Below are positions 1 through 14,066 of a stretch of 64,000 nt of DNA, piece after piece; positions within the stretch are counted from its first letter, which is position 1, and each line of letters opens with the position of its first letter. Origin of the DNA: Terriglobus roseus (GTDB lineage Bacteria > Acidobacteriota > Terriglobia > Terriglobales > Acidobacteriaceae); NCBI RefSeq assembly GCF_900105625.1, contig NZ_FNSD01000001.1:248001-312000 (forward strand), in the 5' to 3' direction. The translations under genes and the position numbers were made by a program. Below the pieces are notes generated by a model, which was not told the DNA's origin, ran no database searches, and was given only the letters and a program-made list of their open reading frames with translations.

Positions 1-1120
1 TTGCTGTCAATTCAGTACCGGTGATGTTCAGCACCTTTGCATCCCAGTGCACGCGCAGACGAGGCGAACGGTTCGAAAGATCCTCCGGTTCCAGGTACTC
101 AAATGTCGTCGACTGCAGCGGCTTCAAACGTGCTTCGATGGTCTTCAGCCAGCCCATCCACATCTTCTGCTCGGCCTCGTGATCACGCTTGCCCCACTGC
201 TGCACAGCAGCGCGGATGCCCATGATCTCTTCCTTGCCAACCTTGTAGGCGCGCCCATAATTGTGGTGCGGCGAGGCCTGGAACCATGCAGCCTTGGTCA
301 GTTCCTTGTCGCCCAGCAACAGACCCGCAGCCTGTGGTCCGCGCATGCACTTACCACCTGAATAACCCACCAGCGATGCTCCAGCCTGCAGGTGCTTGTT
401 CGGTGTCAACGGCTCTTCCGCCGCAGCATCGACAAAGACCGGCACGTTCTTCGCACGCGCGATCTGACAGATGTTCGCTATGGAGAGGGGCCCTCTCTCG
501 GCAAGCGGCGAAGACAGCAAATAGACCATCGCAACCTTGTCCGTCAGCTTCGCCTGCAACTCTTCCGCGCTATCGACTTCCACGATCTCCGCACCGGTCA
601 TGCGAACACCGAAGTCATACGGATTACGCGAATGCTTCGGGATGATCACCTGCGACTTCATGCGCTTGTACGGGAAGGCTTGCGACCATTCCACGTTCGT
701 GCCGCACGAACAGGCGACCGTCGCAAGCGCAATTGCCGCTTCGCAGCCAGTAGTGACGGTGCAGCCGGGCGCGCCTAGCATCTGCGCAATCTCAGACCCG
801 ACCTTATCCATCAGTTCATCGAGGTGCACGAAGTAGAACGAGGCTTCGTACATCGCCTGTTTCACCTCAGGCAAAGAACGCGAGCCCGTGATGATGGTGA
901 AGGTGCCATGCGCGTTCACGATGGGACGAACACCGATCTTCGTGAAGAGGTTGTCCTGCGGTGTGCCGTGCGATGTCGACATCACCGCGGGCGACGACTG
1001 ACCGTCCGCCAGCAATGCGGCGTGTGCGGACAGTGGAGCAGCAACGGCTGCCGCAGAAAGTACACCAGACTGTTTAAGAACATCGCGTCGCGTGGGACGC
1101 GCCTTGCTGAACAGAGACAT
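1..1120 (-). CDS. Tat-exported SelA-like PLP-dependent enzyme (3' end outside window)
   Basis: A PLP-dependent protein of the aminotransferase class V / SelA-DgaE (COG1921) type. About 373 codons are visible and the C-terminus lies beyond position 1. The ATG at 1120 follows a good ribosome site (AAGGA, 5 nt upstream). The N-terminus has a twin-arginine motif, TRRDVLK, then an Ala-rich hydrophobic stretch, so Tat export is predicted. After the signal come the family landmarks RPIVNAHGTFT and GYSGGKCMRGPQAAG; Lys257 in the latter is the expected PLP Schiff-base lysine. Family members such as D-glucosaminate-6-phosphate ammonia-lyase eliminate ammonia from amino sugar acids; this substrate is unknown. 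It lies 42 bp downstream of the RidA gene and is paralogous to the product at 1673-2980. Export of a PLP enzyme is unusual. I am confident of the fold, not of the reaction. Confidence 0.85.
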   Translation of the reverse strand, partial: MSLFSKARPTRRDVLKQSGVLSAAAVAAPLSAHAALLADGQSSPAVMSTSHGTPQDNLFTKIGVRPIVNAHGTFTIITGSRSLPEVKQAMYEASFYFVHLDELMDKVGSEIAQMLGAPGCTVTTGCEAAIALATVACSCGTNVEWSQAFPYKRMKSQVIIPKHSRNPYDFGVRMTGAEIVEVDSAEELQAKLTDKVAMVYLLSSPLAERGPLSIANICQIARAKNVPVFVDAAAEEPLTPNKHLQAGASLVGYSGGKCMRGPQAAGLLLGDKELTKAAWFQASPHHNYGRAYKVGKEEIMGIRAAVQQWGKRDHEAEQKMWMGWLKTIEARLKPLQSTTFEYLEPEDLSNRSPRLRVHWDAKVLNITGTELTA

Positions 1121-1162
1121 GATCTTCCTTTGGTGTTTCGATTCCACAGCAGCCATTTGGAA

Positions 1163-1645
1163 CTAGACGTAAGCGATACAGTCCATCTCGACGAGCGAGT
1201 TGCCCGGTACACCACCTGCGGGAGCAACAGTCGTGCGGACCGGCGGGATTCCGGTGAAACGGCCCATGTAGGTCTCGTTCATCGCCTGGTAGTCCTTCAG
1301 GTCATTCAGGTAAACGTTGACTTTCAGGACCTTGTCCATCGAAGAACCGCACTCGATCAACTGCTTCTCGAGCTCATCAAGCACATGCTTTGTGTGCTCC
1401 TGGATCGTCCCCTGGAAGTGTGCTCCGACGCCCGCGAGATACAGCGTTCCGTTGTGCAGCACAGCGCTGGAGAAGAGACGCTTCTCGCCATCCTTCGGCT
1501 TGGGCCATCCCTGCTTCTGCTCCTTGGGCGCTGCCGCGGCTGCCATCGACGGTGCCAGCGCAGCTGCGCCAGTGACAGCAGCGGCAGCTCCTGCAGCGTT
1601 CTTCAAGAGGTTACGGCGAGTTGTCTTATTTGCGAGGTTCGGCAT
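1163..1645 (-). CDS. Tat-exported RidA-family (YjgF/UK114) protein
   Basis: A 160-residue RidA-family protein. RidA proteins hydrolyse reactive enamine/imine intermediates, such as 2-aminoacrylate, released by PLP-dependent lyases. The ATG at 1645 follows AAGGAG with 4 nt spacing. Residues 8-35 form a Tat signal (TTRRNLLKNAAG, then a poly-Ala hydrophobic run). The Rid core then shows AVLHNGTLYLAGVG, a Tyr/Asn-Asp segment (VNVYLNDLKDYQAMN) and the end motif IPPVRTTVAPAGG, which contains the Arg that contacts substrate carboxylates. The gene sits between two SelA-like PLP genes (27 bp and 42 bp gaps), so it probably works on their unstable products. A periplasmic RidA is atypical because most family members are cytosolic. 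Family assignment is firm and Tat export is a strong prediction. Confidence 0.9.
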   Translation of the reverse strand: MPNLANKTTRRNLLKNAAGAAAAVTGAAALAPSMAAAAAPKEQKQGWPKPKDGEKRLFSSAVLHNGTLYLAGVGAHFQGTIQEHTKHVLDELEKQLIECGSSMDKVLKVNVYLNDLKDYQAMNETYMGRFTGIPPVRTTVAPAGGVPGNSLVEMDCIAYV

Positions 1646-1672
1646 GTTTCTCCTTTTCAGCCCAGGGCTGGT

Positions 1673-2980
1673 TTACGAAGCGTTGGGTTGCGTAAGCAGC
1701 TTGCGTAGCGCGGCAGCGACCACTTCGGCCTCGCCGGGTTGCAGCATCCACGTCGCAAGCACAATCGTATTCTCGTCGGCAGTATGAATGCGGCCACTGT
1801 TGCCGGTCGCAGGATTCAACTCGATGGGAGGTCTCTGAGCGCGCAATTTGTCAGCGACCTGTAGCGGCGTAATGCCCACAACCTTCGGGTCGTAGCGAAG
1901 GAAGAGATGAGGAACATGGTTCGCGATCTTTGGCATGAAGATTTCGGTCTTCATGGTCGGCACATCTTTCAACGCGGCCTGGATGACATGCGTGCGATCG
2001 AGAAATTCTCGTTGCATGGTGGCGTCATCCTGCGAAAGGATCCAGTCGACCGCCGCGACCATTCCGGCAATCTGTTCCTTCGCGACCTTCATGCCTCGGC
2101 CTACGGCATCGCTATTAGGACTGTCGTTGTCGGTTGCCAGATCGATCAACTTCTTCTTGCCCAGCAGCAGGCCAGCGTTCTGAGGCCCGCGGATACCCTT
2201 ACCGCCTGAGAAGCAGACGAAATCAAAGCCCATGCCCGTGTACTTCCACAGATTTTCAATTGGCGGCATGTCGGCTGCTGCGTCGAGGTGGCAAGGCACG
2301 TTCTTTTCGTGCGCAATGTGGAGCCAAGTCTCACGATCAATCAGTGCGGAAGGATTGTTCTCTGGTGCCGCGTCGTTGAAGTAGTTCGTCATCACGGTGC
2401 GGTCGTTGAACGCCTTGCGATAGTCGTCCACCGTGGTAACTTCACGCACCTTCACACCACACAGAATCATGGCGTGGTCGTATTCGTATCGATGCGATTT
2501 CTGCACGATCACTTCGTAGCCGCGATCCAGTGCGGCCTGCGGGATCTCTTCGGGCTTGATGCCGCCCTTCGCGGCAATCGACGCAGCCGTTGCAAGTGTT
2601 AGTGCGGCAGATGCACCAGAGGTGACCAGCGCTCCCTCGCATCGCAGACGCTTCGCGATGTACTCACCCGCTGCTTTGTGTAAATCCTTCAACCGAACAG
2701 GATGATGTGCCGCAACAGCGACCGCACGCTGCACAGAAGGTGGCATAACCGCAGCTGTCAGATAGGTATAGGTTCCGGCCGCGTTAATTACGGTGGAGAC
2801 ACCCAGCTTGGCGTAGTAGTCGTCAGCAGCCGGATCGGCCACCGCTTGGGCCATGGATACACCGGGCAGCACAGCCGACGCTGCAACGGCTGTACTCAAC
2901 TCAAAGAAGCTTCTGCGAGAAAGCAATTGCTGTTCCGTCCGCTGTGTCACGAAAACACCTTTCCCTGGAGAGCGTGCCAT
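1673..2980 (-). CDS. Tat-exported SelA-like PLP-dependent enzyme, second copy
   Basis: A 435-residue PLP enzyme of the SelA/DgaE family. Near the N-terminus LLSRRSFFELS is followed by a hydrophobic stretch ending near GVSMAQA, a Tat signal with a likely cleavage site. Core motifs are VSTVINAAGTYTYLT, the small-residue loop ALVTSGASAALTLATAA and CFSGGKGIRGPQNAG, with Lys261 the predicted cofactor lysine. DAAADMPP supplies the Asp expected to touch the PLP ring nitrogen. The ATG at 2980 has no clear ribosome site; a GTG at 2950 preceded by GGGAAAGG would give a more typical Tat n-region. The protein is clearly related to, but divergent from, the product at 1-1120. It lies 79 bp downstream of the RraA-like gene in what looks like one transcript. 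Ammonia elimination from an amino acid or amino sugar acid is inferred. Confidence 0.9.
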   Translation of the reverse strand: MARSPGKGVFVTQRTEQQLLSRRSFFELSTAVAASAVLPGVSMAQAVADPAADDYYAKLGVSTVINAAGTYTYLTAAVMPPSVQRAVAVAAHHPVRLKDLHKAAGEYIAKRLRCEGALVTSGASAALTLATAASIAAKGGIKPEEIPQAALDRGYEVIVQKSHRYEYDHAMILCGVKVREVTTVDDYRKAFNDRTVMTNYFNDAAPENNPSALIDRETWLHIAHEKNVPCHLDAAADMPPIENLWKYTGMGFDFVCFSGGKGIRGPQNAGLLLGKKKLIDLATDNDSPNSDAVGRGMKVAKEQIAGMVAAVDWILSQDDATMQREFLDRTHVIQAALKDVPTMKTEIFMPKIANHVPHLFLRYDPKVVGITPLQVADKLRAQRPPIELNPATGNSGRIHTADENTIVLATWMLQPGEAEVVAAALRKLLTQPNAS

Positions 2981-3059
2981 TCAACGTAATGAGTCCGAAT
3001 ACCGCTAGCCTACCTGTGCTGCCCAACTGAATGATGGGGCAGATGTCCTAGACTGTTCG

Positions 3060-3830
3060 TCAAATCCGGCCGAACTGCTTCACTGCCGCGACGATGGAGT
3101 GCAGGCGCTCAATATACGGATACATCGCATGCTCCGTCTCGTCCAGCTTCTGCGCAGCGACCAGGACTTCAGCTGCCCGTGCACGAGGGATTACCACCAC
3201 ACCATCCTGATCGGCAGAGATGATATCTCCCGCGTTGACCGTAACGCCATCGCAGTCCACCGGAAGGTTCATGCCGCCGAAGCGATAGTGGCCCACAGAA
3301 GTGGACGGCACAGGGCCAGTCGCATATACAGGAAAACCGATCCGCTTTAACTGTGGAAGATCTCGCACCCCCCCATCGACAACCGCTCCGGTAAAGCCAC
3401 GCGACCACATGGCCGTGCCCATCAGGCCTCCCATACCGGCAATGTCTGCACCGTCTTCGATCTTCATCACATACACCGATCCCGCACCACCGGTATCAAT
3501 GGCCTTCAGCATGCCGCCCAGCGCGTCCGGATCGTGGTTCTCTTCTTTCTTCAGTAGCACCGTCAAAGCCGTTCCGACGAACTTCGTCGGGAAGATCGCC
3601 TGCATCTTGTGACTCATGTAGTGCTTCTCGTGCAAAGTCTGTTCGATCGCATCCGAGACCGACGCAGCCTCGACATGCCGGTATGCCTCAAGCATGCCCG
3701 GAAGATCCTTCTCGTAGTCCGCTGCAGTCTTTGGCGTTTGCGCCATTACCACGGTGCGTGTGCAGACCGCAGCACAGGCTGTAAGACTCAACACAACTGT
3801 TCCAACGATAATCCGCCGATGCAATGCCAT
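3060..3830 (-). CDS. Exported RraA-like protein (possible 4-hydroxy-2-oxo acid aldolase)
   Basis: A 256-residue protein with the RraA / 4-hydroxy-4-methyl-2-oxoglutarate aldolase fold. I start it at the ATG at 3830 because the peptide then opens with a signal sequence (MALHRRIIVGTVVLSL, ending near VVMAQT); an upstream ATG at 3866 adds 12 charged residues. The signature AVVDGGVRDLPQLKRIGFPVY carries the Gly-Gly-x-Arg-Asp motif that binds substrate and the divalent metal, and CDGVTVNAGDIISADQDGVVV completes the pocket. Catalytic family members cleave 4-hydroxy-2-oxo acids to pyruvate plus an aldehyde or keto acid; others (RraA proper) inhibit RNase E. Signal sequence and genomic setting favour a periplasmic enzyme acting after the PLP enzymes. 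The stop is 79 bp from the next gene, consistent with an operon. Confidence 0.85.
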   Translation of the reverse strand: MALHRRIIVGTVVLSLTACAAVCTRTVVMAQTPKTAADYEKDLPGMLEAYRHVEAASVSDAIEQTLHEKHYMSHKMQAIFPTKFVGTALTVLLKKEENHDPDALGGMLKAIDTGGAGSVYVMKIEDGADIAGMGGLMGTAMWSRGFTGAVVDGGVRDLPQLKRIGFPVYATGPVPSTSVGHYRFGGMNLPVDCDGVTVNAGDIISADQDGVVVIPRARAAEVLVAAQKLDETEHAMYPYIERLHSIVAAVKQFGRI

Positions 3831-3875
3831 TCGTTCGTACCTCTGTCGTAAATCTAAACTCTCCACTGGAAAGAT

Positions 3876-3901
3876 TAGCCGCCGGATTGCTCCGGCGGCT
3901 A
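3876..3901 (-). terminator. Hairpin between receptor gene and RraA-like gene
   Basis: A perfect 11-bp inverted repeat, TAGCCGCCGGA / TCCGGCGGCTA, with a 4-nt loop. It sits between the stop of the TonB-dependent receptor gene (3926) and the RraA-like start (3830). On the minus strand it is followed by ATCTTTCC, only a weak T-run, so it may be a partial attenuator or an mRNA-stabilising hairpin that lowers expression of the downstream enzymes relative to the receptor. Confidence 0.5.
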
Positions 3902-3925
3902 GAGACCAGTGAAGTTTGAAGCGGG

Positions 3926-6900
3926 TTAGAAGTTGATCTTGCCTGCCAGCTGCAGGGTACGCGGCTGGTATCCAGAGGCCATCTGCGAAATGGTTCCAAA
4001 GTTCGATCCGCTGAAGTTGAATGCGCCGGCCGTGGTGGCCGAAGGCAGCGTGGAGTTCGGGTTGCCGAGGTTGGCGTGATTGAACAGGTTGAATGCCTCA
4101 CCGCGAAGCTGAAGCTTCAGACGCTCAAAGATCGCGAAGTCTTTGGACATGGAGAAGTTCACGTTGGCAAAGCCCGGTCCCTTGATGTCATTGCGGTGCA
4201 AGGTGCCGAAGGTTCCCAGCGCTGGCAGCGCGTAAGCCGTGGTGTCGATGCAGGCTGTCTTCGAAATGACAGTCGAACGGCCGCAGCTCGCGGAGTTACC
4301 GAGGTGGACGAAGTTCGGACGCTGCGTGCCGATGCCCAGCACATGAGCGCGATCGTCCGTGATGCCAACGTTGAATGGAATGCCGCCCTGCAGGGTGACG
4401 ATACCGTTCGCGTGCCATCCGCCCAGCAGCGAGTTGCCGATGAGGCCAAGCTTCCGGAACTCAGGCATCGCGTAGGTCACCGTGCCGACGAAGCGGTTAC
4501 GGATGTCCCAGTTAGAGTTCGCGTAGTCCGCGCGCAGATTGTTCTGGATCATTGCCGTACCGCCGCCGTTCGCGTCGCTCGACGTATCCATGTTGTGCGC
4601 CCACGTGTAGCCCAACATCACGTCCAGTCCCTTATAAGCATGCTGGCGATAGATAGCACTCAAGCCGTTGTATGTCGAGAAGCTATCGTTGTTGATCTGG
4701 CGGATCTGTCCAAAGAGCTGGTAAGGACGGTTAGCATTCGTCGTGGCGGCAACCGATGGTAGCGGCTGGTTCGGGTAATAGGAACGATCCAGATACACGC
4801 TCTTCGAACCGAGGTATTGCAGCTCAAGAGCGCCTCCCTTCCACATCTCTACTCCGGTATCCAGATTCCACTGGTACATGCGCGGGGTAGGTAAATAGTG
4901 GTTATCCGTGAAGGCGCTGACGTATGTTCCGGGAGTTCCGGCAACCGGAGCAGCAGCGCCCCCCTGTCCACCCGTCGGGTTTGTGTAGGTCAACGGCGCC
5001 GTCGCAGCATTGGCGACAGTGTAAACAACCGACGCTGCAAGGGGGTAGTTCGTGGATGCAAGCGTGAATGCATTCAGGTGGTTCGGGTTGTAGTAGATGC
5101 CGCCACCACCACGGATGACAACCTTCTCATTCGCGCGGTATGCGAGGCCGAGACGCGGAGAGACCAGGTTCGTGTTGGAACCAACAAACTTGAATCCGGG
5201 TGTCGGAACGAACGAAGCTCCAGTGGTAGCGGTGCTATTAGGAATCAGAGCCGTGTAGTCCGAGTTGAGAATGCGAGCAAAGCCATTCAACGAGTACGGC
5301 GCCAGCGGCAGTTCATAACGAACGCCGTACTGTACCGTCAGCTTCTGCGATGCCTGCCAGTTGTCCTGCGCGAAGAAGCCATTACGCCACGATGCTACCG
5401 AACCCTTTACCTGGTAGACCGGTGTCGTGGTCTGGTAGATATCGCCAGCGATGAAATCGGCTGCTGCGTTGCCGGTATATGAGCCGTTGAAATTGAACTG
5501 ACCACGCGGAGTATTGCCAGCGGCACGACCGATGCTCATCTTGCGGATGTCAGCACCTACCATGATGTTGTGCTTGCCGAAGTTGTAGCTGATCTGGTCA
5601 TAGCCATGAATCGTACGGTCATCCTGGAACCAGTTTGTACCTTCTGCACCCAGGCCGGTGTAGTTGGTAATCAGGACCGTGGGGATACCCGGGTTGGCGT
5701 TAGCGGTATCAGCGTTGAAGCCGGGTATACCAAGGGCCGTTCCCGCATTGTTCAGTCCAGCCGTGTAGAAGTAGTTAAGCGCATTGGACGAAAGCTTGTT
5801 GAAACCAATGCGGAAGTCGTTGATCAGGCGTGGCGTGATGATATGCGTGTACGCAATCAGGCCGTTGGTGTTCTTGGTCGGCGACGAACTTGCCGATGTA
5901 GGAACGATGTTGCCCGAGGCCGTTTGGATCGTCTGGTAATCAAAACGTGCAAACAGGCGAACCTTCTCACCGATGTTGTAATCCACGCGATCCAGTGTCT
6001 GGTCCTGCATGAAGCTGTTCGGTACGCTTTGATTCGCATTGTTAGTCAGGCCTGCGACGTTTGGCGTGGCATAGTACTGCAGCAACTTTGCAGCAACGGC
6101 TGACACCGGTACTTGGTTGTTCGTGTAGAAACCGCCGGCTGGATTACGCAATGGCGTTGTAATCGCAGAAAAGTCGCCCCGCTGCATCGCAGAGGTCAGC
6201 AGCGTCGCAACCGTCGTCGTCTCCTGCTTCTGGCGGACGCCTTCGTACGATCCCATGAAGAACAGCTTGTCGCGACCGTTGTACAGGAATGGCAGCACGA
6301 CAGGACCATCAAGGACAAAGCCGAACTGGTTGAAGTGCTGCACGGGCGTCTTCGCAGTCGATGATGCGAGGAAGCTCTTAGCGTTGAAAGCGGTGTTCTG
6401 CACGTAGTCGAACGCAGTTCCGTGGAAGCTGTTGGTGCCTGCTTTGGTGTCCACGTTGATGTGAACGCCCATGTATGCACCGTACTGCGCGGTGTAGTTA
6501 CCGGTCTGCGTCTGCACGGCACCGACGGCGTCTGCATTCGGCGTCACCGGTGAATTCGAGATAAGCGAATTCATGATGGTGATACCGTCCAACGTCAGCG
6601 AGTTCGTGACCTCGCGTGTACCGGCACCGATGTAGTTCGCGCCCGGAGGCGTACCGCTGTAGCTCGTCTTCGGTCCAACAATGATGCTTGGGTTAGTTGA
6701 TGCCAGTTCCATGACGCGGCGGCTGGCCATCGGCAGATTCTCGACCTGCTTGCTCGTCAGTGTCTCGCCGACCAGCGCGTCATCCGTCGAAAGCGCAGGA
6801 GTTTCAGCTGTAACCGTGATTTCCGTACTAGAAGAGCCGACTTTCAGCGTTACATCGGTACGCGCCGCCATGTTCAACAGCACTTCAGTACCACGGCTCG

Positions 6901-7162
6901 TCACATGCGAATAGCCACTTTGCTCAACGCTGACGTCATAGCTGCCCGGTTGCACAAACTGAATCTGATAGAAGCCCTGTTCATTGGTCGTGCCGGCGTA
7001 CTTAACTTTTGTCGCTGTATTCACAGCCGTGACATGTGCACCAGCTACAACTGCACCAGTGGTATCTGTGATAGTTCCTACAAGGGACGTATTGTTCGCG
7101 ACCTGCGCAGACATCACGGCAGGAAGAACGATCGGGGCAAGGTAAAGAAGAGGCTTCTTCAA
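3926..7162 (-). CDS. TonB-dependent receptor, Oar-like, with carboxypeptidase-like N-terminal domain
   Basis: An outer-membrane receptor of 1078 residues, of the large Oar-like class abundant in Acidobacteria. I choose a TTG start at 7162: it lies 6 nt after AGGAG and is followed by a classic signal peptide (KKPLLYLAPIVLPAVMSAQ). An ATG at 7282 would add 40 residues without signal character. Residues 25-110 form a carboxypeptidase-regulatory-like beta-sandwich (SLVGTITDTTGAVVAGA, QGFYQIQFVQPGSYDV). A plug domain (LPMASRRVMELASTNPS; LTLDGITIMN) and a long beta-barrel follow, ending in aromatic RTLQLAGKINF. Such receptors import oligosaccharides or peptides using TonB energy; the ligand is unknown. 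It is the first gene of the leftward set with RraA, PLP and RidA genes, so it probably takes up their substrate. A dyad at 7305-7322 may control it. Confidence 0.9.
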   Translation of the reverse strand: MKKPLLYLAPIVLPAVMSAQVANNTSLVGTITDTTGAVVAGAHVTAVNTATKVKYAGTTNEQGFYQIQFVQPGSYDVSVEQSGYSHVTSRGTEVLLNMAARTDVTLKVGSSSTEITVTAETPALSTDDALVGETLTSKQVENLPMASRRVMELASTNPSIIVGPKTSYSGTPPGANYIGAGTREVTNSLTLDGITIMNSLISNSPVTPNADAVGAVQTQTGNYTAQYGAYMGVHINVDTKAGTNSFHGTAFDYVQNTAFNAKSFLASSTAKTPVQHFNQFGFVLDGPVVLPFLYNGRDKLFFMGSYEGVRQKQETTTVATLLTSAMQRGDFSAITTPLRNPAGGFYTNNQVPVSAVAAKLLQYYATPNVAGLTNNANQSVPNSFMQDQTLDRVDYNIGEKVRLFARFDYQTIQTASGNIVPTSASSSPTKNTNGLIAYTHIITPRLINDFRIGFNKLSSNALNYFYTAGLNNAGTALGIPGFNADTANANPGIPTVLITNYTGLGAEGTNWFQDDRTIHGYDQISYNFGKHNIMVGADIRKMSIGRAAGNTPRGQFNFNGSYTGNAAADFIAGDIYQTTTPVYQVKGSVASWRNGFFAQDNWQASQKLTVQYGVRYELPLAPYSLNGFARILNSDYTALIPNSTATTGASFVPTPGFKFVGSNTNLVSPRLGLAYRANEKVVIRGGGGIYYNPNHLNAFTLASTNYPLAASVVYTVANAATAPLTYTNPTGGQGGAAAPVAGTPGTYVSAFTDNHYLPTPRMYQWNLDTGVEMWKGGALELQYLGSKSVYLDRSYYPNQPLPSVAATTNANRPYQLFGQIRQINNDSFSTYNGLSAIYRQHAYKGLDVMLGYTWAHNMDTSSDANGGGTAMIQNNLRADYANSNWDIRNRFVGTVTYAMPEFRKLGLIGNSLLGGWHANGIVTLQGGIPFNVGITDDRAHVLGIGTQRPNFVHLGNSASCGRSTVISKTACIDTTAYALPALGTFGTLHRNDIKGPGFANVNFSMSKDFAIFERLKLQLRGEAFNLFNHANLGNPNSTLPSATTAGAFNFSGSNFGTISQMASGYQPRTLQLAGKINF

Positions 7163-7304
7163 TGGGGCTCCTGGTCGAACTGGATATGCATACAGGCGAT
7201 GAAGGCGCGGCGATGCCGCACTCACTCGCGAAACTGGTTGTGCTGATAAACGCATTTCATATGACAGCAGCCTTTGGCGCATCGGCCAAATTGCGCAACG
7301 ATGC

Positions 7305-7322
7305 CTAAGTCAAATGACCTAG
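7305..7322. promoter_or_regulatory. Candidate operator dyad upstream of the receptor gene
   Basis: The sequence reads CTAAG, 8 nt, CCTAG. The same half-site at the same spacing occurs at 11209-11226 (CTAAG, 8 nt, CTTAG). It lies about 140 bp upstream of the proposed receptor start and just past the stop of the NarL-type regulator gene. NarL-family regulators commonly bind short inverted repeats, so this is a candidate binding site; that link is inference from repetition and position only. Confidence 0.4.
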
Positions 7323-7353
7323 GAGCGGCTGTTGGTTTCCATGGATGGAAGTT

Positions 7354-7986
7354 CTAAGCCCCGTCCAGATGGACGAGTCCGCGCTGAAGCGCAAAGATGG
7401 TTGCCTGTGTGCGGTCACGGGCGCCGACCTTGTCGAGCACCGCGCTCACATGGATCCGAACCGTCTTCTCCGCAATGTGCAACTCTTCCGCAATCTCGCG
7501 GTTGGAGCGGCCTCGCGTAATGCAGGTCAGCACTTCGGCTTCGCGCGGGGTGAGATCGGTTGCAGGGATGCGTTCCGCCAGACGGTTGAGAACTGCCGAC
7601 GGAATGTAACGAAGATCGCGCCCCACAGCCTCAATCGCATTCAGGACTTCATCGCCACTTGCGTCTTTGGTCAGGTAACCAAGCGCCCCGCCCCGCAGTG
7701 CGCGGTAGATATCCTCACTCCCCTGGTAGGACGACAGCACGATGCACCGTGCCTGCGGAAACTCTTTGCGGATTGTGGTGAGGACCTCAAAGCCGCTCAT
7801 CCTGGGCAGTCGCAGATCCAGCAAGACGATGTCTGGCAGAAGCTCACGGTACATCGCAACGCCCTGCTCGCCATCGACGGCTTGCCCCACAATCTGGAGA
7901 CCGGGCTGCATCGACAAGACGCTGTTGAGCGCCATGCGAGCCAGGAAGTGATCCTCTACCAGCAGGATTCGTGTGAGCTTCGTCAT
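7354..7986 (-). CDS. NarL/FixJ-family response regulator
   Basis: A 210-residue two-component regulator. Starting at the ATG at 7986 gives MTKLTRILLVEDHFLARMAL, a normal receiver start with the acidic pair Glu11-Asp12. Phospho-acceptor Asp57 is in DIVLLDLRLP and the conserved Lys is in GYLTKDAS. Residues about 145-205 form a LuxR-type helix-turn-helix (LTPREAEVLTCI, REIAEELHIAEKTVRIHVSAV). It follows the sensor kinase by 25 bp on the same strand, so the two form a cognate pair. The expected targets are the adjacent receptor/enzyme genes and the divergent amidohydrolase/transporter genes, both of which have a shared dyad upstream. Pairing is strongly supported; the targets are inferred. Confidence 0.92.
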   Translation of the reverse strand: MTKLTRILLVEDHFLARMALNSVLSMQPGLQIVGQAVDGEQGVAMYRELLPDIVLLDLRLPRMSGFEVLTTIRKEFPQARCIVLSSYQGSEDIYRALRGGALGYLTKDASGDEVLNAIEAVGRDLRYIPSAVLNRLAERIPATDLTPREAEVLTCITRGRSNREIAEELHIAEKTVRIHVSAVLDKVGARDRTQATIFALQRGLVHLDGA

Positions 7987-8011
7987 CAGGATCAAAGTAT
8001 CAGAAAGCGGG

Positions 8012-11000
8012 TCACCACATGGCTGCCGAGAGTGCGTTCCGTTGCGGCACCGCTCTCGCGTCAGCCGTGGAAAACGGAACCCGCACAACGATCTCGGTGC
8101 CTCCACGCGGCGTGGATCGCACAGCGAAATCCCCGCCCAGTTTGCGTGCCCGCTCTTCCATCACCATCATGCCGAAGTGTCCGCTCTTGCCGGTGATGCG
8201 CCCCGGCTGGAAGCCGCATCCATCGTCCTTTACTTCCAAGCGGACCTCCCCTTTGCTGAACACCAGTTGCACGTCGATCCGCTGCGGCGAAGCGTGCCGA
8301 AGCGCATTCGAGATGGCTTCCTGCCCGATGCAGACCAGGTGGTGCACCGAGCCCGGTGGCAACATGAGCTCCGTTCCGTCTACATGAAGCTCCACATGAA
8401 TACTGTGTTCGCGGTAGTGCGCATCAATGGCGCGGGACAGCGCGTGCGACAGAACGCCCGAGACTTCCTGCGAGTCGCGCAAATCCCAGATGATGCGACG
8501 TGCCTCGGCCTGGCAGTGCAACACCATGCTGTGCGCCAGTTCACACGACTGAACCGCCGCAGCTGGGTCGGTGCCGTCCACCAGCCGTTTGGCTGTAGCC
8601 TCCACCTGCCATGCCACTGCCGCGAAGCCAGCCATCAGGGTGTCATGGCACTCGCGAGCGATACGATTGCGCTCTTCCACAACGACTGCCAGCGATGCGC
8701 GAACGCGGCTGATGCGCCGCCGATACCAGACCACGGCAGCCATACCGCATAAGAGCAATGCGGCGACCATGAAATACCACGTGGCATACAAATGAGGCAT
8801 CTGCCGCACGCTTAGGGACGACGACGATGAGATCCAGTCGGTGCCACTCTTGCGCGCCTGCACTTCAAAGCGGTACCGCCCTGAAGGCAGATGCTGGTAG
8901 TGCGCCACGCGCGAATGGGTTGTGGTCCATTCGCTGTCATAACCAGCCAGCCGGTAACGGAATTCGATTTGCCCCGGGTTCGAAAGCTCGCGTGCGTCGT
9001 AGAAGATACGCAGATCTGTCTGTCCTGGCTTGAGCACCAGCGAGTCGTCACTCTGCAGCGGCTCCATCTCACCACTGGCTACGGGACTCCATCCTTCGAT
9101 CGACGCCGCGGCAACACGTGGGCCTGCATCTTCCGCAACTGCTGTTGTGTGAACGAATCCGCGTGTCGTCGCAAACCACAAGGTCCCATCAGCCATACGC
9201 GTTGCCGCAGGCTGCGAGGGCCCGCTGCAATCGCTGGATCGCATACCGTCGGCCTTGCCAAAGAGGACGACGTCCGGAACCGTTCCGTGGTGATGTATGG
9301 CGCGCACCATCTGGGCACGCGACACGCGAAGAATTCCGCGCGACGTGCCGAACCACAGGTGCCCATCGAAGTCCTCCAGGCCACTGTAGATCGGGAGGCT
9401 ACCCAGGTCCCCGCCTACGTGCAGCGCCTCCACACGGTTTTCCCGAAGTTGCCCAATGCCGCCTCGTCGCGAGCCTACCCAGACATTCCCCGCCAAATCG
9501 TGCGAGAGGGAGAGCACATAGGGGTGTGGCAGACCCTCGATAGCCGTTACCGTTTCACCGCGCACGCGGAACAGACCTTCGCTGGTGCCAACGAGGACGC
9601 TCCCATCCTGATCCCGTAACAAGCAGGTGATGAGCTTGTTTTCCAGCAGGCGCGTGCTCTGCCCTTTGCCTGGCTCTCCAGAGGCGAAGCGAAAGATGCC
9701 CGTATAGGTACCGATCCATAGCTCACCTTCCTGTGAGTAAAGCAGCGCACTCACAGCGTTCACGGGTGATTCGATCCCTAACCGATAGTGCTGCTTTCCT
9801 CTGTCTGTCACACGGTAAATCCCGTCAAACCAGGTGCCCACCCATATCTCCCCTGGCTTTCCTTCGGTCAGTGCGCGGATCGGCGTAGAGGGCTGCATCT
9901 CAGGCAGCGGCATCGGCACGATGACTTCGCCATGCTTCCGGAACAGACCCTGTCCCCATGACCCGAGCCAGACGTCTCCGCGGCTGTCACCGAAAGCCAC
10001 CGCTGCGTACCCTACGGCCAATCCTTCCTGTCGTCCGTACGGCGCAAAAGGCGCCTTGCGCCAACGGCTGAGTCCCCCCGTCAGCATGCCGATCCAAAGA
10101 TTGTCCTCATCGTCGATAAAGAGCGAACGAACCGTCTCGTCCTCAAAGCCTTCATGAGATCCCCAGTGTGCAACCTCGGCTCCAAGCTTTCCGGTGGGGG
10201 GGCTATAACGCCAAAGGCCATCATGACGCGTACCCACCCACACATTGCGTCCAGCATCGGTAACCAACTGTGTGACGGGGCTCTTCGTGGCCATCACCTC
10301 ACGCACCAACGGGTCATTCCCCGACTCGTCCAGAACCTGCAGGAGCGCGTGGTCCGTGCCAATCCATAGAGCCCCTTCGCGATCTCGAAAGAGGGCTGTC
10401 GGAGATCCAAACTGCTTCGGTAGTGCCAGCGCCTGCAGCGTTTCATTGTTCCAGCGAAACAGACCACTCGAAGTGATGAAGAGTATTGGCCCCGGCCTGC
10501 CGTTCCTCCCAGGCGAGTCCGCGAAGACAACTGTGATGTCACCTGCGATGGTCCCGGTCCCGGGGATGCGTTCCATTCGACCATCGCGAAAACGCTCAAT
10601 GCCGTTCTGCGTCGCCACCCACAGCATCCCGGTGTGGTCGATCACCATGGTACGAATGCGTTCATGAAGAAAACCGGCCTGCTCGCTTACGTTCACCACG
10701 CCGGTCTTGGTCTGGTGCAGAACACCACTGCCGTCTGTGCCTACCCAGAGATCACCGTCCTGACCGGGTAGCATCGCGTTTACCGCTGCGCCATTCACAA
10801 CAGTCGGGTTCTGAACACTGCTCACCGGTGCAAAACGTTGGCCGTCAAAGGTCAGTACGCCCGAAAACGTCGCCAACAGCAGCTTCCTGTCTGGCCCCTG
10901 CGCGATCTGCCGCACATTGCTCTCGGAAAGGCCATCTTCGACCTGCCAGTTCTGTTTCTGGTATTCCGACAGACGCAGTCGCGTCGGAGAATCGTGCGAA

Positions 11001-11146
11001 CGTGTCTGCGAAGGAGGCAAGGGTAAAGAACGTAGCTGTCCAGATGCAAAGCCAATGGACAGGAGCGCCAAGCAGATCGCAGATAAAATCTGCGACTGCA
11101 GAGGCCTTGCGCGCTTTAGGATGCTTCTTTTCACGAGTTCCTTCAT
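8012..11146 (-). CDS. Beta-propeller (Reg_prop/Y_Y_Y) sensor histidine kinase
   Basis: A 1044-residue membrane sensor kinase. An N-terminal signal or anchor (about residues 18-36) precedes two-component propeller repeats, seen as recurring motifs such as GTDGSGVLHQT, LWVATQNGIERF, LWIGMLTGGLSRW and LWFGTSRGILRV, covering about residues 60-650. A Y_Y_Y beta-sandwich follows (IEFRYRLAGYDSEWTTT), then one membrane segment near 775-800. The cytoplasmic part is of the NarX/HisKA_3 type, with ARECHDTLMAG (His834 the likely phosphorylation site) and a HATPase domain (EAISNALRHA, VKDDGCGFQPG, GGTEIVVRVPF). Related propeller sensors in Bacteroidetes detect oligosaccharides in the periplasm; here the kinase is separate from its regulator rather than a hybrid. 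The signal is probably the nutrient imported by the adjacent system. Confidence 0.93.
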   Translation of the reverse strand: MKELVKRSILKRARPLQSQILSAICLALLSIGFASGQLRSLPLPPSQTRSHDSPTRLRLSEYQKQNWQVEDGLSESNVRQIAQGPDRKLLLATFSGVLTFDGQRFAPVSSVQNPTVVNGAAVNAMLPGQDGDLWVGTDGSGVLHQTKTGVVNVSEQAGFLHERIRTMVIDHTGMLWVATQNGIERFRDGRMERIPGTGTIAGDITVVFADSPGRNGRPGPILFITSSGLFRWNNETLQALALPKQFGSPTALFRDREGALWIGTDHALLQVLDESGNDPLVREVMATKSPVTQLVTDAGRNVWVGTRHDGLWRYSPPTGKLGAEVAHWGSHEGFEDETVRSLFIDDEDNLWIGMLTGGLSRWRKAPFAPYGRQEGLAVGYAAVAFGDSRGDVWLGSWGQGLFRKHGEVIVPMPLPEMQPSTPIRALTEGKPGEIWVGTWFDGIYRVTDRGKQHYRLGIESPVNAVSALLYSQEGELWIGTYTGIFRFASGEPGKGQSTRLLENKLITCLLRDQDGSVLVGTSEGLFRVRGETVTAIEGLPHPYVLSLSHDLAGNVWVGSRRGGIGQLRENRVEALHVGGDLGSLPIYSGLEDFDGHLWFGTSRGILRVSRAQMVRAIHHHGTVPDVVLFGKADGMRSSDCSGPSQPAATRMADGTLWFATTRGFVHTTAVAEDAGPRVAAASIEGWSPVASGEMEPLQSDDSLVLKPGQTDLRIFYDARELSNPGQIEFRYRLAGYDSEWTTTHSRVAHYQHLPSGRYRFEVQARKSGTDWISSSSSLSVRQMPHLYATWYFMVAALLLCGMAAVVWYRRRISRVRASLAVVVEERNRIARECHDTLMAGFAAVAWQVEATAKRLVDGTDPAAAVQSCELAHSMVLHCQAEARRIIWDLRDSQEVSGVLSHALSRAIDAHYREHSIHVELHVDGTELMLPPGSVHHLVCIGQEAISNALRHASPQRIDVQLVFSKGEVRLEVKDDGCGFQPGRITGKSGHFGMMVMEERARKLGGDFAVRSTPRGGTEIVVRVPFSTADARAVPQRNALSAAMW

Positions 11147-11208
11147 CTACCAGACCACAAGAGATCAAGCCTCCGCAAGCGTTTGCAGGGCTCGGGGCCT
11201 GCTCTCAC

Positions 11209-11226
11209 CTAAGACTATTGCCTTAG
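11209..11226. promoter_or_regulatory. Candidate operator dyad in divergent promoter region
   Basis: A perfect inverted repeat CTAAG-N8-CTTAG lies between the divergent sensor kinase and amidohydrolase genes, just upstream of a -35-like TTGACA (11229). A near-identical dyad lies at 7305-7322 upstream of the receptor. Position and repetition suggest a binding site for the regulator encoded at 7354-7986. This is a candidate, not a demonstrated site. Confidence 0.45.
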
Positions 11227-11228
11227 AC

Positions 11229-11258
11229 TTGACATGGTCGATGGGCCGATGACAGATA
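11229..11258 (+). promoter_or_regulatory. Possible sigma-70-type promoter for the amidohydrolase
   Basis: TTGACA at 11229-11234 and CAGATA at 11253-11258 are separated by 18 nt. The -35 box is consensus and the -10 box is poor, as expected for an activator-dependent promoter. It lies 53 bp upstream of the start codon at 11312, with the dyad at 11209-11226 immediately before the -35 box, a typical activator position. Confidence 0.35.
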
Positions 11259-11311
11259 CGTAAGCAGGATTGATGATTTGTTTTTCTGCAAGCTAGCCGT
11301 AAGGAGTACCC

Positions 11312-12634
11312 ATGCGTTTCCCGTTCCGGTCCCGCTCTATGGCGTTTGGACTCATCCTGCTGTCTGCCGCCACGCTACACGCTCAGCGCTACGATCTGTT
11401 GCTACAACACGGCCATGTCATCGACCCCCGCAACAACATCGATGCGGTCATGGACGTCGCGATCGGCGGCGGCAAAATTGCGAAGGTCGCCACAACGATT
11501 CCGGCAGCCGATGCCGTTAAGACGGTCAATGCGACAGGCCTGTATGTGACGCCGGGCCTCATCGACATTCACGCGCACGTCTACACCGGGACTGGCGAAA
11601 AGAATTCTTATGCTGGTGACAACGGTATCTATCCGGATGGCTACACCTTCCGCGTTGGCGTAACAACAGTTGTCGATGCAGGCAGTTCCGGCTGGCGCAA
11701 CTTCGAAGATTTCAAGCAGCGCGTCATCGATCGCCAGCAGACGCGCATCCTAGCAGAACTGAACATCGTGGGTGCAGGTATGCGCGGCGCCCACTACGAA
11801 CAGAACCTGGACGACATGGACGGCACTGCAACGGCCGAGATGGCTAAGAAGTATCCAGGGCTCATCGTCGGCATCAAGAGCGCTCACTTCGAGGGTCCGG
11901 AGTGGAAGCCCTATGAGCAGGCCGTGAAGGCCGGCACCATCGCCAACATCCCCGTCATGATCGACTACGGCAACGACCGCAAGGAACGTCCGCTGTATGA
12001 GCTTCTGACCAGGGTTTTGCGCCCCGGCGACATTTACACCCACGTGTACAGCGGTCTGCGTGAAGAGCAGGATCCGGTCACACTGGGACCCCAAAAAGGG
12101 CTGATCAAAGGCCGACAGCGCGGAATCTATTTTGACGTTGGACACGGCGGTGGATCGTTCAACTGGAACGTGGCCTACCCGATTGTGACCAAATTTAAGT
12201 TTCTACCTGACTCCATCTCGACAGATATCCACATCACCAGCATGAACGCTGGCATGAAGGACATGCTGAATGTGATGGATAAATTCCTCGCAATGGGTGA
12301 ACCGCTGCCGCTGGTCATCAAGCAGTCGACGTCGAACCCGGCGCACGAGATGAAGCAGGACCAACTCGGAAACCTGTCGGAAGGTGCAATCGCCGATCTG
12401 GCCGTATTGCGCCTTGAGAATGGTAAGTTTGGTTTTGTCGACATGAATAACGTGCGCGTCGACGGAAAGCAGAAACTCACCTGTGAACTCACCATCAAGG
12501 ACGGCAAGGTGGTCTACGACCTGAACGGTATCTCGGCGGACGCCTACGGCGCACCCGCATCCAGCGCGCAGAAGCAGTCCAAGCGCTGGACGACGATGCA
12601 CACCGTCTACGGCAAGGATCAGGAAGCGCACTAA
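11312..12634 (+). CDS. Exported amidohydrolase / deacetylase-family metallohydrolase
   Basis: A 440-residue metal-dependent hydrolase of the dihydroorotase-like amidohydrolase superfamily (COG3964 type). AAGGAG lies 7 nt before the ATG. Residues 1-25 are a signal peptide (MAFGLILLSAATLHAQ). The TIM-barrel metal site is seen in VTPGLIDIHAHVY (His87, His89), VGIKSAHFEG (Lys189, likely the carbamylated bridging lysine), IYTHVYSG (His244), FDVGHGG (His278) and STDIHIT (Asp305). Relatives remove acyl groups from N- or O-acylated acids and are often encoded beside SelA-like PLP enzymes, as here across the divergent promoter. I infer that it deacylates the imported compound in the periplasm before the PLP step. 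The MFS gene follows by 139 bp. The family is clear; the substrate is not. Confidence 0.87.
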   Translation: MRFPFRSRSMAFGLILLSAATLHAQRYDLLLQHGHVIDPRNNIDAVMDVAIGGGKIAKVATTIPAADAVKTVNATGLYVTPGLIDIHAHVYTGTGEKNSYAGDNGIYPDGYTFRVGVTTVVDAGSSGWRNFEDFKQRVIDRQQTRILAELNIVGAGMRGAHYEQNLDDMDGTATAEMAKKYPGLIVGIKSAHFEGPEWKPYEQAVKAGTIANIPVMIDYGNDRKERPLYELLTRVLRPGDIYTHVYSGLREEQDPVTLGPQKGLIKGRQRGIYFDVGHGGGSFNWNVAYPIVTKFKFLPDSISTDIHITSMNAGMKDMLNVMDKFLAMGEPLPLVIKQSTSNPAHEMKQDQLGNLSEGAIADLAVLRLENGKFGFVDMNNVRVDGKQKLTCELTIKDGKVVYDLNGISADAYGAPASSAQKQSKRWTTMHTVYGKDQEAH

Positions 12635-12657
12635 AAGTCTCACTTCCCTACTATCCC

Positions 12658-12686
12658 GAACGGCGTCCCTTCCGCGGACGCCGTTC
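12658..12686 (+). terminator. Strong hairpin after the amidohydrolase gene
   Basis: An 11-bp perfect inverted repeat, GAACGGCGTCC / GGACGCCGTTC, with a 7-nt loop lies 24 bp after the stop codon. There is no T-run, so it may be a leaky terminator or an mRNA 3'-end stabiliser placed between the amidohydrolase and the transporter. Confidence 0.45.
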
Positions 12687-12708
12687 TCACTTCACGAAAA
12701 GGCATGCA

Positions 12709-12751
12709 GCTAGGACGCCGCGAAGATTTCCGGATTCTTGTGCGTCCTAGC
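12709..12751 (+). promoter_or_regulatory. 10-bp inverted repeat upstream of the MFS gene
   Basis: GCTAGGACGC (12709-12718) and GCGTCCTAGC (12742-12751) are perfect complements separated by 23 nt, ending 22 bp before the ATG at 12774. The pair could be an operator or could form an RNA hairpin near the ribosome site; no consensus that I know is matched. Confidence 0.35.
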
Positions 12752-12773
12752 CGCAAACGGAGACAATTCAGGC

Positions 12774-14066
12774 ATGGTTCCGAAGGCATCATCCGTACGT
12801 GTGCGTTATCTGCTTGGATTTCTCCTCTTTCTGTTGAGCGGCATCGCCTTCCTTGACCGCACGAATATCTCCATCGCCGGCCCGCAGATAAGCCGGGAGT
12901 TTGCGCTGGGGCACGAGCGGCTTGGATGGATTTTTAGCGCCTTCCTGATCGGTTACGCACTCATGCAGGTTCCCGCCGGCTGGATGGCCGCCCGATTCGG
13001 ACCGCGATCCGTGCTGACCGTTGGAACACTCTGGTGGGGTGTCGCGACAATCCTGGCGACGCTGCTGCCGGTAGGTACACCAACTGCCGTCTTCTGGTTG
13101 ATCGCGCTCCGCTTCCTGCTCGGTGCAGGTGAGTCCGTCGTCTACCCCGCCGCCAATCAATTCGTCTCGAACTGGATCCCTGCCGGAGAACGCGGCATCA
13201 TCAACGGCCTGATCTTCGCGGGCGTCGGCGCGGGCAGTGGCCTTACACCGCCGCTGCTGAACTGGATCATCACCCAGCATGGCTGGCGTGCTGCCTTTTG
13301 GTTCAGCGCACTGCTGGGTGCGTTGATCGGCTGCATATGGTGGTTCGCATCCCGCAACATGCCAGAACAGCACCCGTCCGTTTCAAGTGAGGAACTCCAA
13401 GAGATTCGAGCCGGGATCACGACAGACTCACCCGCTGAAATCGCCGCAGCTCCCAAGGTTCAGTGGAAGGCCATGTTCACGCGGAAAGATCTGCCCCTGC
13501 TGATGAGCGCGTACTTCTGCTTCGGCTACATCTCGTGGATTTACTTCAGTTGGTTCTTCACGTACATGTCGGAGGTGCGCGGCTTCAATCCGAAGTCCAG
13601 CGCACTCTTCACGATGTTGCCCTTCATTTCCATGACCTTCTTCTGCCTGCTGGGTGGCGCACTCAGTGATCGCATCACGCGGCGCTTTGGCCTGCGCGCA
13701 GGTCGCTGCTGGCTTGCTTCCGGTGCGCTGTGCCTGACCGCCTGCTTTCTTGTCTTTGGTTCGCAAGCAAAGAACCCGGTCACCGCCGCCATCATCCTCT
13801 CCTTTGGAGCGGGAGCGCTCTACCTTTCGCAGAGTTCCTTCTGGTCTGTCTCGATCGACATTGCCGGGAAGCAGTCGGGCGTTTTCTCCAGCCTTGTGAA
13901 CACGGGCGGTCAGGTAGGAGGAGCCGTCACAGCCTCGCTGACGCCCTGGATCGCACACGGCTTTGGCTGGACCTCGTCCTTCGGAACCGCCGCCTGCATG
14001 GCCCTTCTCGGAGCAACATGCTGGGCTCTGGTGAACCCTGCACCGGTGCCAGCACGGAATGCGTAG
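12774..14066 (+). CDS. MFS transporter, anion:cation symporter type
   Basis: A 430-residue inner-membrane carrier with about 12 hydrophobic segments. The ATG at 12774 gives MVPKASSVRVRYLLGFLLFL; an in-frame ATG further upstream at 12738 adds a non-hydrophobic leader and is less likely. TM1 ends in FLDRTNISIAGPQISREF, the hallmark of the anion:cation symporter branch (hexuronate, galactonate and phthalate carriers). The cytoplasmic loop GWMAARFGPRSVLT is the MFS motif A region, and LGGALSDRITRRFG is its counterpart in the second half. A central cytosolic loop lies near residues 200-235. Located behind the amidohydrolase, it probably carries the organic-acid end product of the periplasmic pathway into the cytoplasm with protons. 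The exact substrate cannot be read from sequence. Confidence 0.88.
   Translation: MVPKASSVRVRYLLGFLLFLLSGIAFLDRTNISIAGPQISREFALGHERLGWIFSAFLIGYALMQVPAGWMAARFGPRSVLTVGTLWWGVATILATLLPVGTPTAVFWLIALRFLLGAGESVVYPAANQFVSNWIPAGERGIINGLIFAGVGAGSGLTPPLLNWIITQHGWRAAFWFSALLGALIGCIWWFASRNMPEQHPSVSSEELQEIRAGITTDSPAEIAAAPKVQWKAMFTRKDLPLLMSAYFCFGYISWIYFSWFFTYMSEVRGFNPKSSALFTMLPFISMTFFCLLGGALSDRITRRFGLRAGRCWLASGALCLTACFLVFGSQAKNPVTAAIILSFGAGALYLSQSSFWSVSIDIAGKQSGVFSSLVNTGGQVGGAVTASLTPWIAHGFGWTSSFGTAACMALLGATCWALVNPAPVPARNA

Follow-up and report, generated by a model that had tools for sequence, protein, structure and literature searches.

Breakdown enzymes that depend on vitamin B6 are normally intracellular. 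A stretch of 64,000 nucleotides from Terriglobus roseus (hereafter the window; contig NZ_FNSD01000001.1, G000:C1:248001-312000, within a 4.8 Mb genome) contains a gene cluster that may depart from this pattern. It encodes two pyridoxal phosphate (PLP) enzymes resembling DgaE and SelA, here called PLP1 and PLP2, together with a RidA family protein, an RraA-like protein and a COG3964-type amidohydrolase, and all five have N-termini of the export type. An outer-membrane barrel, a propeller sensor/regulator pair and a major facilitator superfamily (MFS) carrier complete the cluster. We give a probability of roughly 55% to the reading that the cluster serves the catabolism of an N-acylated amino sugar acid in the periplasm, the most likely substrate being an N-acetyl-hexosaminate, for example N-acetylglucosaminate.

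The closest described system is the Ong pathway of the marine strain ACAM 620, in which OngB, OngC, the RidA protein OngD and KdgK serve the use of N-acetylglucosaminate (PMC9537276). This pathway cannot do without its RidA protein, although the reason is unexplained, and a cytoplasmic location is predicted for OngB and OngC (PMC9537276; PMC12017989). Both clusters combine a deacetylase, a PLP deaminase, their own RidA protein, outer-membrane receptors and an inner-membrane carrier. The Ong enzymes handle an N-acetylated sugar acid and produce 2-keto-3-deoxygluconate (KDG), and we infer the same for the window cluster. In contrast, OngC is a fold-type III PLP enzyme and OngB belongs to the D-aminoacylase line, whereas the window set is DgaE/SelA-like and COG3964-type. 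Moreover, the window enzymes all have export signals, and kdgK is part of the Ong cluster but was not recognised in this one. We therefore do not assign the window set to the Ong clusters, as neither the PLP folds nor the amidohydrolase match; in a search of the PDB the latter scored 139.7 bits with 2ogj and 23.9 bits with PpOngB (9kb1).

Other relatives share parts of the set. D-glucosaminate-6-phosphate lyase is the closest solved fold of PLP1 and has the PLP lysine and an aspartate in common with it, but PLP1 and PLP2 score far below the family cut-offs, lack its arginine triad and proton-donating histidine, and carry export signals. The same three families (amidohydrolase, RidA and PLP enzyme) are encoded together in Sinorhizobium sp. 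B11 and Paracoccus alcaliphilus. There, however, the proteins have no signals and an ATP-binding cassette (ABC) importer replaces the barrel and the MFS carrier; no characterised function of this trio was found in the literature searched. For chitinase clusters of Natrarchaeobius, an amino sugar route has been predicted that involves a putative D-glucosaminate-6-phosphate lyase together with a gene of the RutC family (PMC12343721). They resemble the window cluster in placing DgaE-like and Rid-type genes together, but the route is archaeal and predicted, a phosphorylated intermediate is proposed for it, and the available portion of the paper mentions no exported enzymes.

Single PLP enzymes are known from the periplasm (PMC6206403; PMC6085387). 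PvdN and PtaA of Pseudomonas are exported by the twin-arginine translocation (Tat) system and tailor pyoverdine there, with no RidA or amidohydrolase partner mentioned in the portion of the paper available (PMC6206403). By analogy with pyoverdine maturation, the window set could serve periplasmic tailoring or biosynthesis instead of catabolism. This is very improbable, since no biosynthetic genes were found among the adjoining genes examined, since a barrel, a sensor pair and a carrier are what the use of a nutrient would call for, and since the neighbours in Granulicella include glycosidases. A first-pass annotation of the window had stated that it knew of no described periplasmic PLP-lyase/RidA pathway of this kind. 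No such route was recognised from titles and the openings of abstracts in the literature searched, which covered few subscription papers, and the statement holds for the set but not for its single members, given PvdN and PtaA. The novelty claimed for the gene set has to be narrowed similarly: Sinorhizobium and Paracoccus have the trio in a form that lacks signals, while the exported version was not found described. Because PLP enzymes are known singly in the periplasm, what is new, as far as the literature searches reach, is a catabolic set of PLP lyase, RidA and deacylase in that compartment. If the catabolic reading is correct, multi-step amino-acid-type catabolism, complete with cofactor-dependent enzymes and a dedicated scavenger of enamines, sits in the periplasm, and a toxic intermediate is made beyond the reach of the cell's own PLP enzymes, which is a testable rationale. 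It would also point to a way in which oxidised amino sugars are used by Acidobacteria in soil, and provide functions for the rhizobial trio and for Tat-exported RidA proteins.

Export signals and the origin of export

PLP1 (1..1156, minus strand) is represented in the window by residues 1-385 of 547, and the remainder lies to the left of it; the full open reading frame (ORF) is L004:15513-17156 in the genome. The sequence TRRDVLK is found at its N-terminus, TRRNLLK at that of RidA (160 residues; 1163..1645, minus strand) and SRRSFFE at that of PLP2 (435 residues; 1673..2980, minus strand), each followed by a hydrophobic stretch. The RraA-like protein (268 residues; 3060..3866, minus strand) and the amidohydrolase (440 residues; 11312..12634, plus strand) have hydrophobic N-termini of the Sec type and no Tat motif. 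A gene for TatC is present in the genome.

These features are conserved. Among homologues of at least 50% identity, with the duplicate locus L007 dropped, a loose twin-arginine motif is present in 22/22 PLP1, 44/45 PLP2 and 34/34 RidA proteins, and the sole PLP2 homologue without it has lost its N-terminus at a contig end. A stricter motif was surveyed in 51 loci from the genome scan, to which two stretches from the genome of the window and six loci on annotated plasmids were added; L006 and L007, two copies in one genome, were both counted. It preceded PLP1 in 23 of 26 cases, the three others being from Rhizobium, Enterococcus faecalis and Paraburkholderia, and PLP2 in 51 of 54, the others being a contig-end cut, an SHRRGFL variant and one haloarchaeon. 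For RidA the strict motif was found in 26 of 29 and a looser pattern in 29 of 29, both Bacteroidota copies being of the loose kind. In the same survey, Sec-like starts were recognised by eye in 27/29 amidohydrolases (those of E. faecalis and Mesorhizobium lack one) and in 23/23 RraA-like proteins. When a hydrophobic stretch was required in addition to the strict motif, 25/27 PLP1, 61/76 PLP2 and 28/43 RidA matches passed, the last including other RidA copies. The background was 10/544 among other ORFs, a rough figure because these came from a length-based ORF caller and some are false.

None of the 12 outgroup PLP matches passed the latter test (0/7 and 0/5). Among them is L082, an acidobacterial relative of 28% identity that has no signal and is also the exception in 20 stretches from relatives, nearly all outside the family, whose PLP homologues otherwise retain the twin-arginine motif. 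Nearly all acidobacterial and Bacteroidota homologues whose N-terminus was inspected possess the motif as well, except for L027, which is cut off, and L082. Export of PLP1, PLP2, RidA, RraA and the amidohydrolase is well supported by these sequence patterns. The Tat or Sec-type signals that the first-pass annotation had ascribed to the five enzymes are thus both recognisable and conserved, and its concern that homologues in most related genomes might lack them is not borne out.

It could be argued that the extensions at the N-termini do not function as signals and that the enzymes are cytosolic, as the signals were judged by motif and hydrophobicity tests only. This is hardly credible, because the motif and hydrophobic stretch are kept in N-termini that otherwise diverge and because the outgroup matches lack the motif. 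In addition, residues 1-50 of the PLP2 model are of very low confidence and lie outside the fold, as expected for a signal, and the signals of PLP2 relatives in L070-L072 have lipobox-like ends. The Tat motif and lipobox-like cysteine of these relatives suggest that they are Tat lipoproteins; a gene for an SSF transporter is near in L070.

The PLP sequences also bear on when export arose. In a quick, unrooted maximum-likelihood tree of 75 PLP sequences, one branch with an SH-aLRT value of 97 separated the 63 exported sequences from the others. The split was recovered, again with a value of 97, after 7 long or odd rows were left out, which reduced the already small number of unsignalled rows from 12 to 7. 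The rows were thinned by hand from 115 collected sequences by removal of near relatives, truncated rows and the T. roseus duplicate, and PLP1 of L011, in which the PLP lysine is present and the motif changed, was left out. Labels for exported and cytosolic rows (EXP and CYT) were assigned by locus, with L082 labelled CYT, and the loose motif was confirmed in 63/63 exported rows. PLP1 formed its own group and a further paralogue, PLP3, was placed within PLP2. Because the exported sequences lie on one side of the branch, export would most simply have arisen before the split of PLP1 and PLP2.

PLP3 is a third Tat-signalled SelA-like protein of the window's genome (L005:9473-10915, G000:C1, about 1.93 Mb). 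Its gene adjoins those of a fucosidase of glycoside hydrolase (GH) family 29 type and a BBE oxidase, another barrel of the type found in the window is encoded nearby, and in some relatives (L022-L024) PLP3 is in the same locus as the cluster.

Active sites and the proposed route

Membership scores in the lyase families were 130 and 152.5 bits for PLP1, over its 385 window residues, and 104.6 and 150.7 bits for PLP2. The second score of each pair is that for TIGR01437, the DgaE family, and both are under its cut-off of 385.3. Searches of NCBIfam, PDB sequences and folds all placed DgaE/D-glucosaminate-6-phosphate lyase first for PLP1. The fold model of PLP1, built from the T. roseus copy (mean pLDDT 81.6), matched 7lc0 first and 8t7j (Cap15) next, while that of PLP2, built from the window copy (mean pLDDT 78.8), matched 8t7j first with 7lc0 close behind. 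D-glucosaminate-6-phosphate lyase, Cap15 and SelA were the best matches of the models. The C-terminal part of PLP1 contains an extra domain of eight strands (model residues 393-485) with positions invariant over 19 sequences. In 19 aligned homologues a small beta-strand domain extends over about residues 450-547 of the full ORF (L004:15513-17156), and no Pfam match was obtained there.

These matches leave room for other chemistry, such as Cap15-like oxygen-dependent decarboxylation or deamination, or C-S cleavage, acting on a nucleoside-like or sulfur substrate. Cap15 (8t7j_A) is the best structural match of PLP2, with a TM-score of 0.85 on the target, and PLP1 matches PF01053 (Cys_Met_Meta_PP) above the cut-off (31 vs 27 bits). 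However, the lyase reaches a TM-score of 0.82 on the target for PLP2 and ranks first for PLP1, and such chemistry would leave the amidohydrolase and the sugar-acid carrier unexplained, which makes it improbable.

When aligned to D-glucosaminate-6-phosphate lyase, the exported sequences invariably (63/63) possess the PLP lysine K213, Asp189 and Arg242; the lysine is residue 213 by PDB letters and Lys-217 in PMC9529869. Three phosphate-binding arginines are named in the lyase (PMC9529869). They occur together in 0/63 exported sequences, and Arg346 in 0/63, the alignment being gappy around 332, whereas all three are kept in the DgaE-family protein of E. faecalis, which is encoded beside a phosphotransferase system (PTS). 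The loss of this triad, though shared by some proteins that are not exported, agrees with a substrate that carries no phosphate, which is what one would expect beyond the cytoplasm. His163 is the proton donor of the lyase and may prevent the release of a reactive enamine (PMC9529869). The pair His162-His163 is found in 0/63 exported sequences, so that an exported RidA partner would make sense. Assignment of PLP1 and PLP2 as D-glucosaminate-6-phosphate lyases was rejected on the basis of the TIGR01437 cut-off and of the absence of both the arginine triad and the histidine pair.

The partner enzymes are more readily placed in families. The amidohydrolase exceeds the cut-off of NF006689 (408.6 vs 371 bits), and its D-x-H-x-H sequence, which includes the metal-binding H-x-H, is invariant in 40/40 aligned homologues. 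For the COG3964 activity on acetyl-(R)-mandelate, a literature search yielded nothing usable. RidA scores 68.3 bits with PF01042, above the gathering threshold of 27.3, and 59 bits with TIGR00004, below the cut-off of 106.25. An R...E/D pattern, corresponding to the catalytic Arg/Glu, is present in 35/44 RidA matches; of the nine misses, two are encoded beside PLP3 and the remainder are divergent. RidA also scores 39.7 bits with the model of RutC, a member of the Rid superfamily. In the acidobacterial locus L063, a single protein with three RidA-family stretches (L063:7713-9179) is encoded between the amidohydrolase and PLP2, and its RidA match lacks the usual C-terminal acidic pattern. The RraA-like protein scores 124.7 bits with PF03737 (threshold 24.5) and has a D-G-x-x-R-D sequence, with the R-D motif of the family, that is invariant in 25/25 aligned proteins. 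It is possibly a class II 4-hydroxy-2-oxo acid aldolase.

Based on these families, a route can be proposed. The oxidised amino sugar would enter through the outer-membrane barrel and the amidohydrolase would take off its acyl group. PLP1 and PLP2, exported folded with their cofactor, would then remove water and ammonia from the resulting free 2-amino acid of the sugar and, because the proton-donating histidine of the lyase is missing, release a reactive enamine or imine that the exported RidA would hydrolyse. The 2-keto-3-deoxy acid, KDG or an epimer, would be imported by the MFS carrier and handled by a cytosolic KDG-kinase-like enzyme and 2-keto-3-deoxy-6-phosphogluconate (KDPG) aldolase, while RraA may cleave part of it in the periplasm. 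The two PLP enzymes could possibly act on two epimeric substrates or form a hetero-oligomer. Genes for a KDG-kinase-like protein and KDPG aldolase are found together at L093, with a pyrroloquinoline quinone (PQQ) dehydrogenase and another sugar-acid-type carrier. Neither in the region nor in L004 could a gene for KdgK be recognised, the KDG-kinase-like gene being elsewhere in the genome.

Processing had initially been proposed to take place entirely in the periplasm. Given the MFS carrier and the KDG-kinase-like/KDPG aldolase pair, it is no less likely that the 2-keto-3-deoxy acid is imported. A bolder form of the proposal is that an N-acetyl-hexosaminate is degraded to pyruvate-type products wholly outside the cytoplasm, in an extracytoplasmic deaminating Entner-Doudoroff-like branch that includes RraA cleavage, keeps the enamine from cytosolic PLP enzymes and has a single export origin in Acidobacteriota, shared with some Bacteroidota. 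We put this forward as a speculation that is unlikely to hold in full.

Gene neighbourhoods and co-occurrence

The first-pass annotation had proposed either an N-acylated amino acid or an amino sugar acid as the substrate. Of these, the N-acylated amino sugar acid is the better supported class, by analogy with the marine Ong pathway and by the gene neighbourhoods of relatives, which point to amino sugar acids. Thus, E. faecalis has a PTS, a MupG-family protein, an amidohydrolase, the DgaE-family enzyme and a sugar kinase, while Halomontanus has a D-aminoacylase, a PLP enzyme, a PIG-L deacetylase, heparinase-family proteins and GH20. In Paraburkholderia, RidA and a PLP enzyme are accompanied by IclR, a porin and a GntP permease, and in R. 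leguminosarum by an ABC importer. The neighbourhoods in Natrononativus, Mesorhizobium (two), Thermomicrobium and a Salmonella record give little hint, as do those in Halosolutus, except for a GntP permease, and in Haloarcula, except for a sugar ABC importer. Beside the trio in the acidobacterial locus L081 is a galactonate-dehydratase-like enzyme of the enolase superfamily with a twin-arginine-type start (L081:7904-9274), possibly a periplasmic sugar-acid dehydratase.

The full order MFS carrier-kinase-regulator-barrel-RraA-PLP2-RidA-PLP1-amidohydrolase is found in 10/51 loci (L009, L010, L013, L015-L018, L022, L037, L056). It also occurs on a plasmid of Granulicella tundricola; there a lactonase and a BBE oxidase extend the series, and genes for a fucosidase and for enzymes of families GH125 and GH35 flank it. 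The window and T. roseus differ in that the amidohydrolase and MFS carrier are at the opposite end and divergent. Lactonase matches were obtained in 10/27 loci with PLP enzyme, RidA and amidohydrolase (flanks were limited and T. roseus was counted twice), and the two copies inspected (L004, L012) have a Tat-type start; we take the lactonases as a hint only. A BBE sugar oxidase lies near 8 of the same 27 loci.

The deacylase might instead serve a periplasmic N-acyl-D-amino acid route in which PLP1 and PLP2 dehydrate beta-hydroxy amino acids (such as D-Ser, D-Thr or hydroxyaspartate) and RidA clears 2-aminoacrylate or 2-aminocrotonate. RidA action on 2-aminoacrylate is well known (PMC5636819), the Ong deaminase accepts D-Ser and D-Thr too (PMC9537276), and the ABC importers of the rhizobial relatives are seemingly of the dipeptide type. 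Such a route would not account for the sugar-acid-type carriers, glycosidases, lactonase and galactonate-dehydratase-like enzyme around relatives of the cluster. From what is known of its family, moreover, the RraA partner would suit 4-hydroxy-2-oxo acids, which are longer than the products of Ser and Thr. We regard this alternative as doubtful.

The comparison across acidobacterial genomes that the first-pass annotation called for covered 396 Acidobacteriota genomes. The PLP query found relatives in 43, the amidohydrolase in 40 and RidA in 30. The PLP enzyme and the amidohydrolase occur together in 35 genomes, the PLP enzyme only in 8, the amidohydrolase only in 5 and neither in 348, and 29 of the 30 genomes with RidA also have both others. 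The searches scored only a few candidates in each genome and may therefore have missed additional copies, and the Fisher tests of co-occurrence ignore kinship. Starts lie within 5 kb of each other for PLP enzyme and amidohydrolase in 26/35 genomes and for PLP enzyme and RidA in 26/29, counted from listed start positions and not from every extra copy. At the level of loci, both RidA and the amidohydrolase accompany PLP2 in 21/51. The PLP/RidA/amidohydrolase core recurs in families f59, f40 and f85, with or without the RraA-like gene and barrel, and the order amidohydrolase-RidA-PLP2 is present in two Bacteroidota loci; several other stretches from relatives contain PLP2 alone.

Several observations weigh against the reading as a periplasmic amino sugar acid module. 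Another 21/51 PLP2 loci have no RidA, amidohydrolase or RraA match above 100 bits in the available DNA. Although short contigs account for many of these, in seven cases roughly 10 kb is available on either side of the gene (L028, L030, L035, L038, L040, L047 and L055, the last with a weaker RidA match). Since PLP2 is so often alone, PLP2-type enzymes have uses outside the set, and this solitary use is not explained by the proposed pathway. A close RidA relative is also missing from 14/43 genomes with the PLP enzyme. In fold, PLP2 comes nearest to Cap15 (8t7j), which its PDB title describes as oxygen- and PLP-dependent, and the ammonia-lyase follows closely; the amidohydrolase falls outside the OngB family. 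The arginine triad is never complete in haloarchaeal homologues, and four proteobacterial ones keep two of the three. The same four proteobacterial enzymes keep His162-His163 yet have a RidA neighbour, so RidA does not simply replace the histidine. The rhizobial ABC importers could also serve N-acyl amino acids. Finally, the BBE oxidase was rejected as a periplasmic source of the sugar acid, because 13/13 copies judged by eye have no signal and because no more than 8 of the 27 loci have it nearby.

Organization of the locus

Every gene listed in the first-pass annotation was found where it had been placed, and the Pfam and NCBIfam families agree with it. Upstream of rraA on the minus strand are the genes of an outer-membrane beta-barrel with a carboxypeptidase-regulatory-like domain (3926..7282; PF25183 656.1 bits, PF13620 59.4 bits), a NarL/LuxR-type response regulator (7354..8106; PF00072, PF00196) and a sensor histidine kinase with a Reg_prop propeller and a Y_Y_Y domain (8012..11146; PF07494, PF07495, PF07730, PF02518), of which we take the propeller and Y_Y_Y part to be on the periplasmic side. 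The MFS carrier follows the amidohydrolase on the plus strand after a gap of 103 bp (12738..14066; PF07690 218.1 bits). Its best NCBIfam match is TIGR00893, the D-galactonate transporter (217.9 bits, under the cut-off of 395), consistent with an anion or sugar-acid type. The seven minus-strand genes, in the order kinase-regulator-barrel-RraA-PLP2-RidA-PLP1, are spaced by 6 to 79 bp, with the kinase and regulator ORFs overlapping, and for this reason they probably form one operon. Because of the overlap, the true start of the regulator is probably inside its annotated ORF. The propeller sensor/regulator pair and the sugar-acid-type carrier are as first described, but the supposed TonB receptor is better called an Oar-type barrel (our own label for PF25183 with CarboxypepD_reg), as no TonB plug family was matched in a Pfam search of the protein. 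It is likely to be an outer-membrane importer.

In L021, L022, L024, L029, L037, L044 and L053 only the kinase part of the histidine kinase was matched, so that the propeller sensor may have been swapped there while the regulator was retained. In a genome-contig scan, PLP2 of the window was closest (92%) to the copy of Terriglobus roseus DSM 18391. The T. roseus genome used for comparison (NC_018014.1) is separate from the window's own and contains the cluster twice, at 2825429-2846715 (L006) and 2364911-2386197 (L007). These stretches of 21,287 bp differ at 2 positions, which marks a recent large duplication; the window's genome shows one copy of PLP2.

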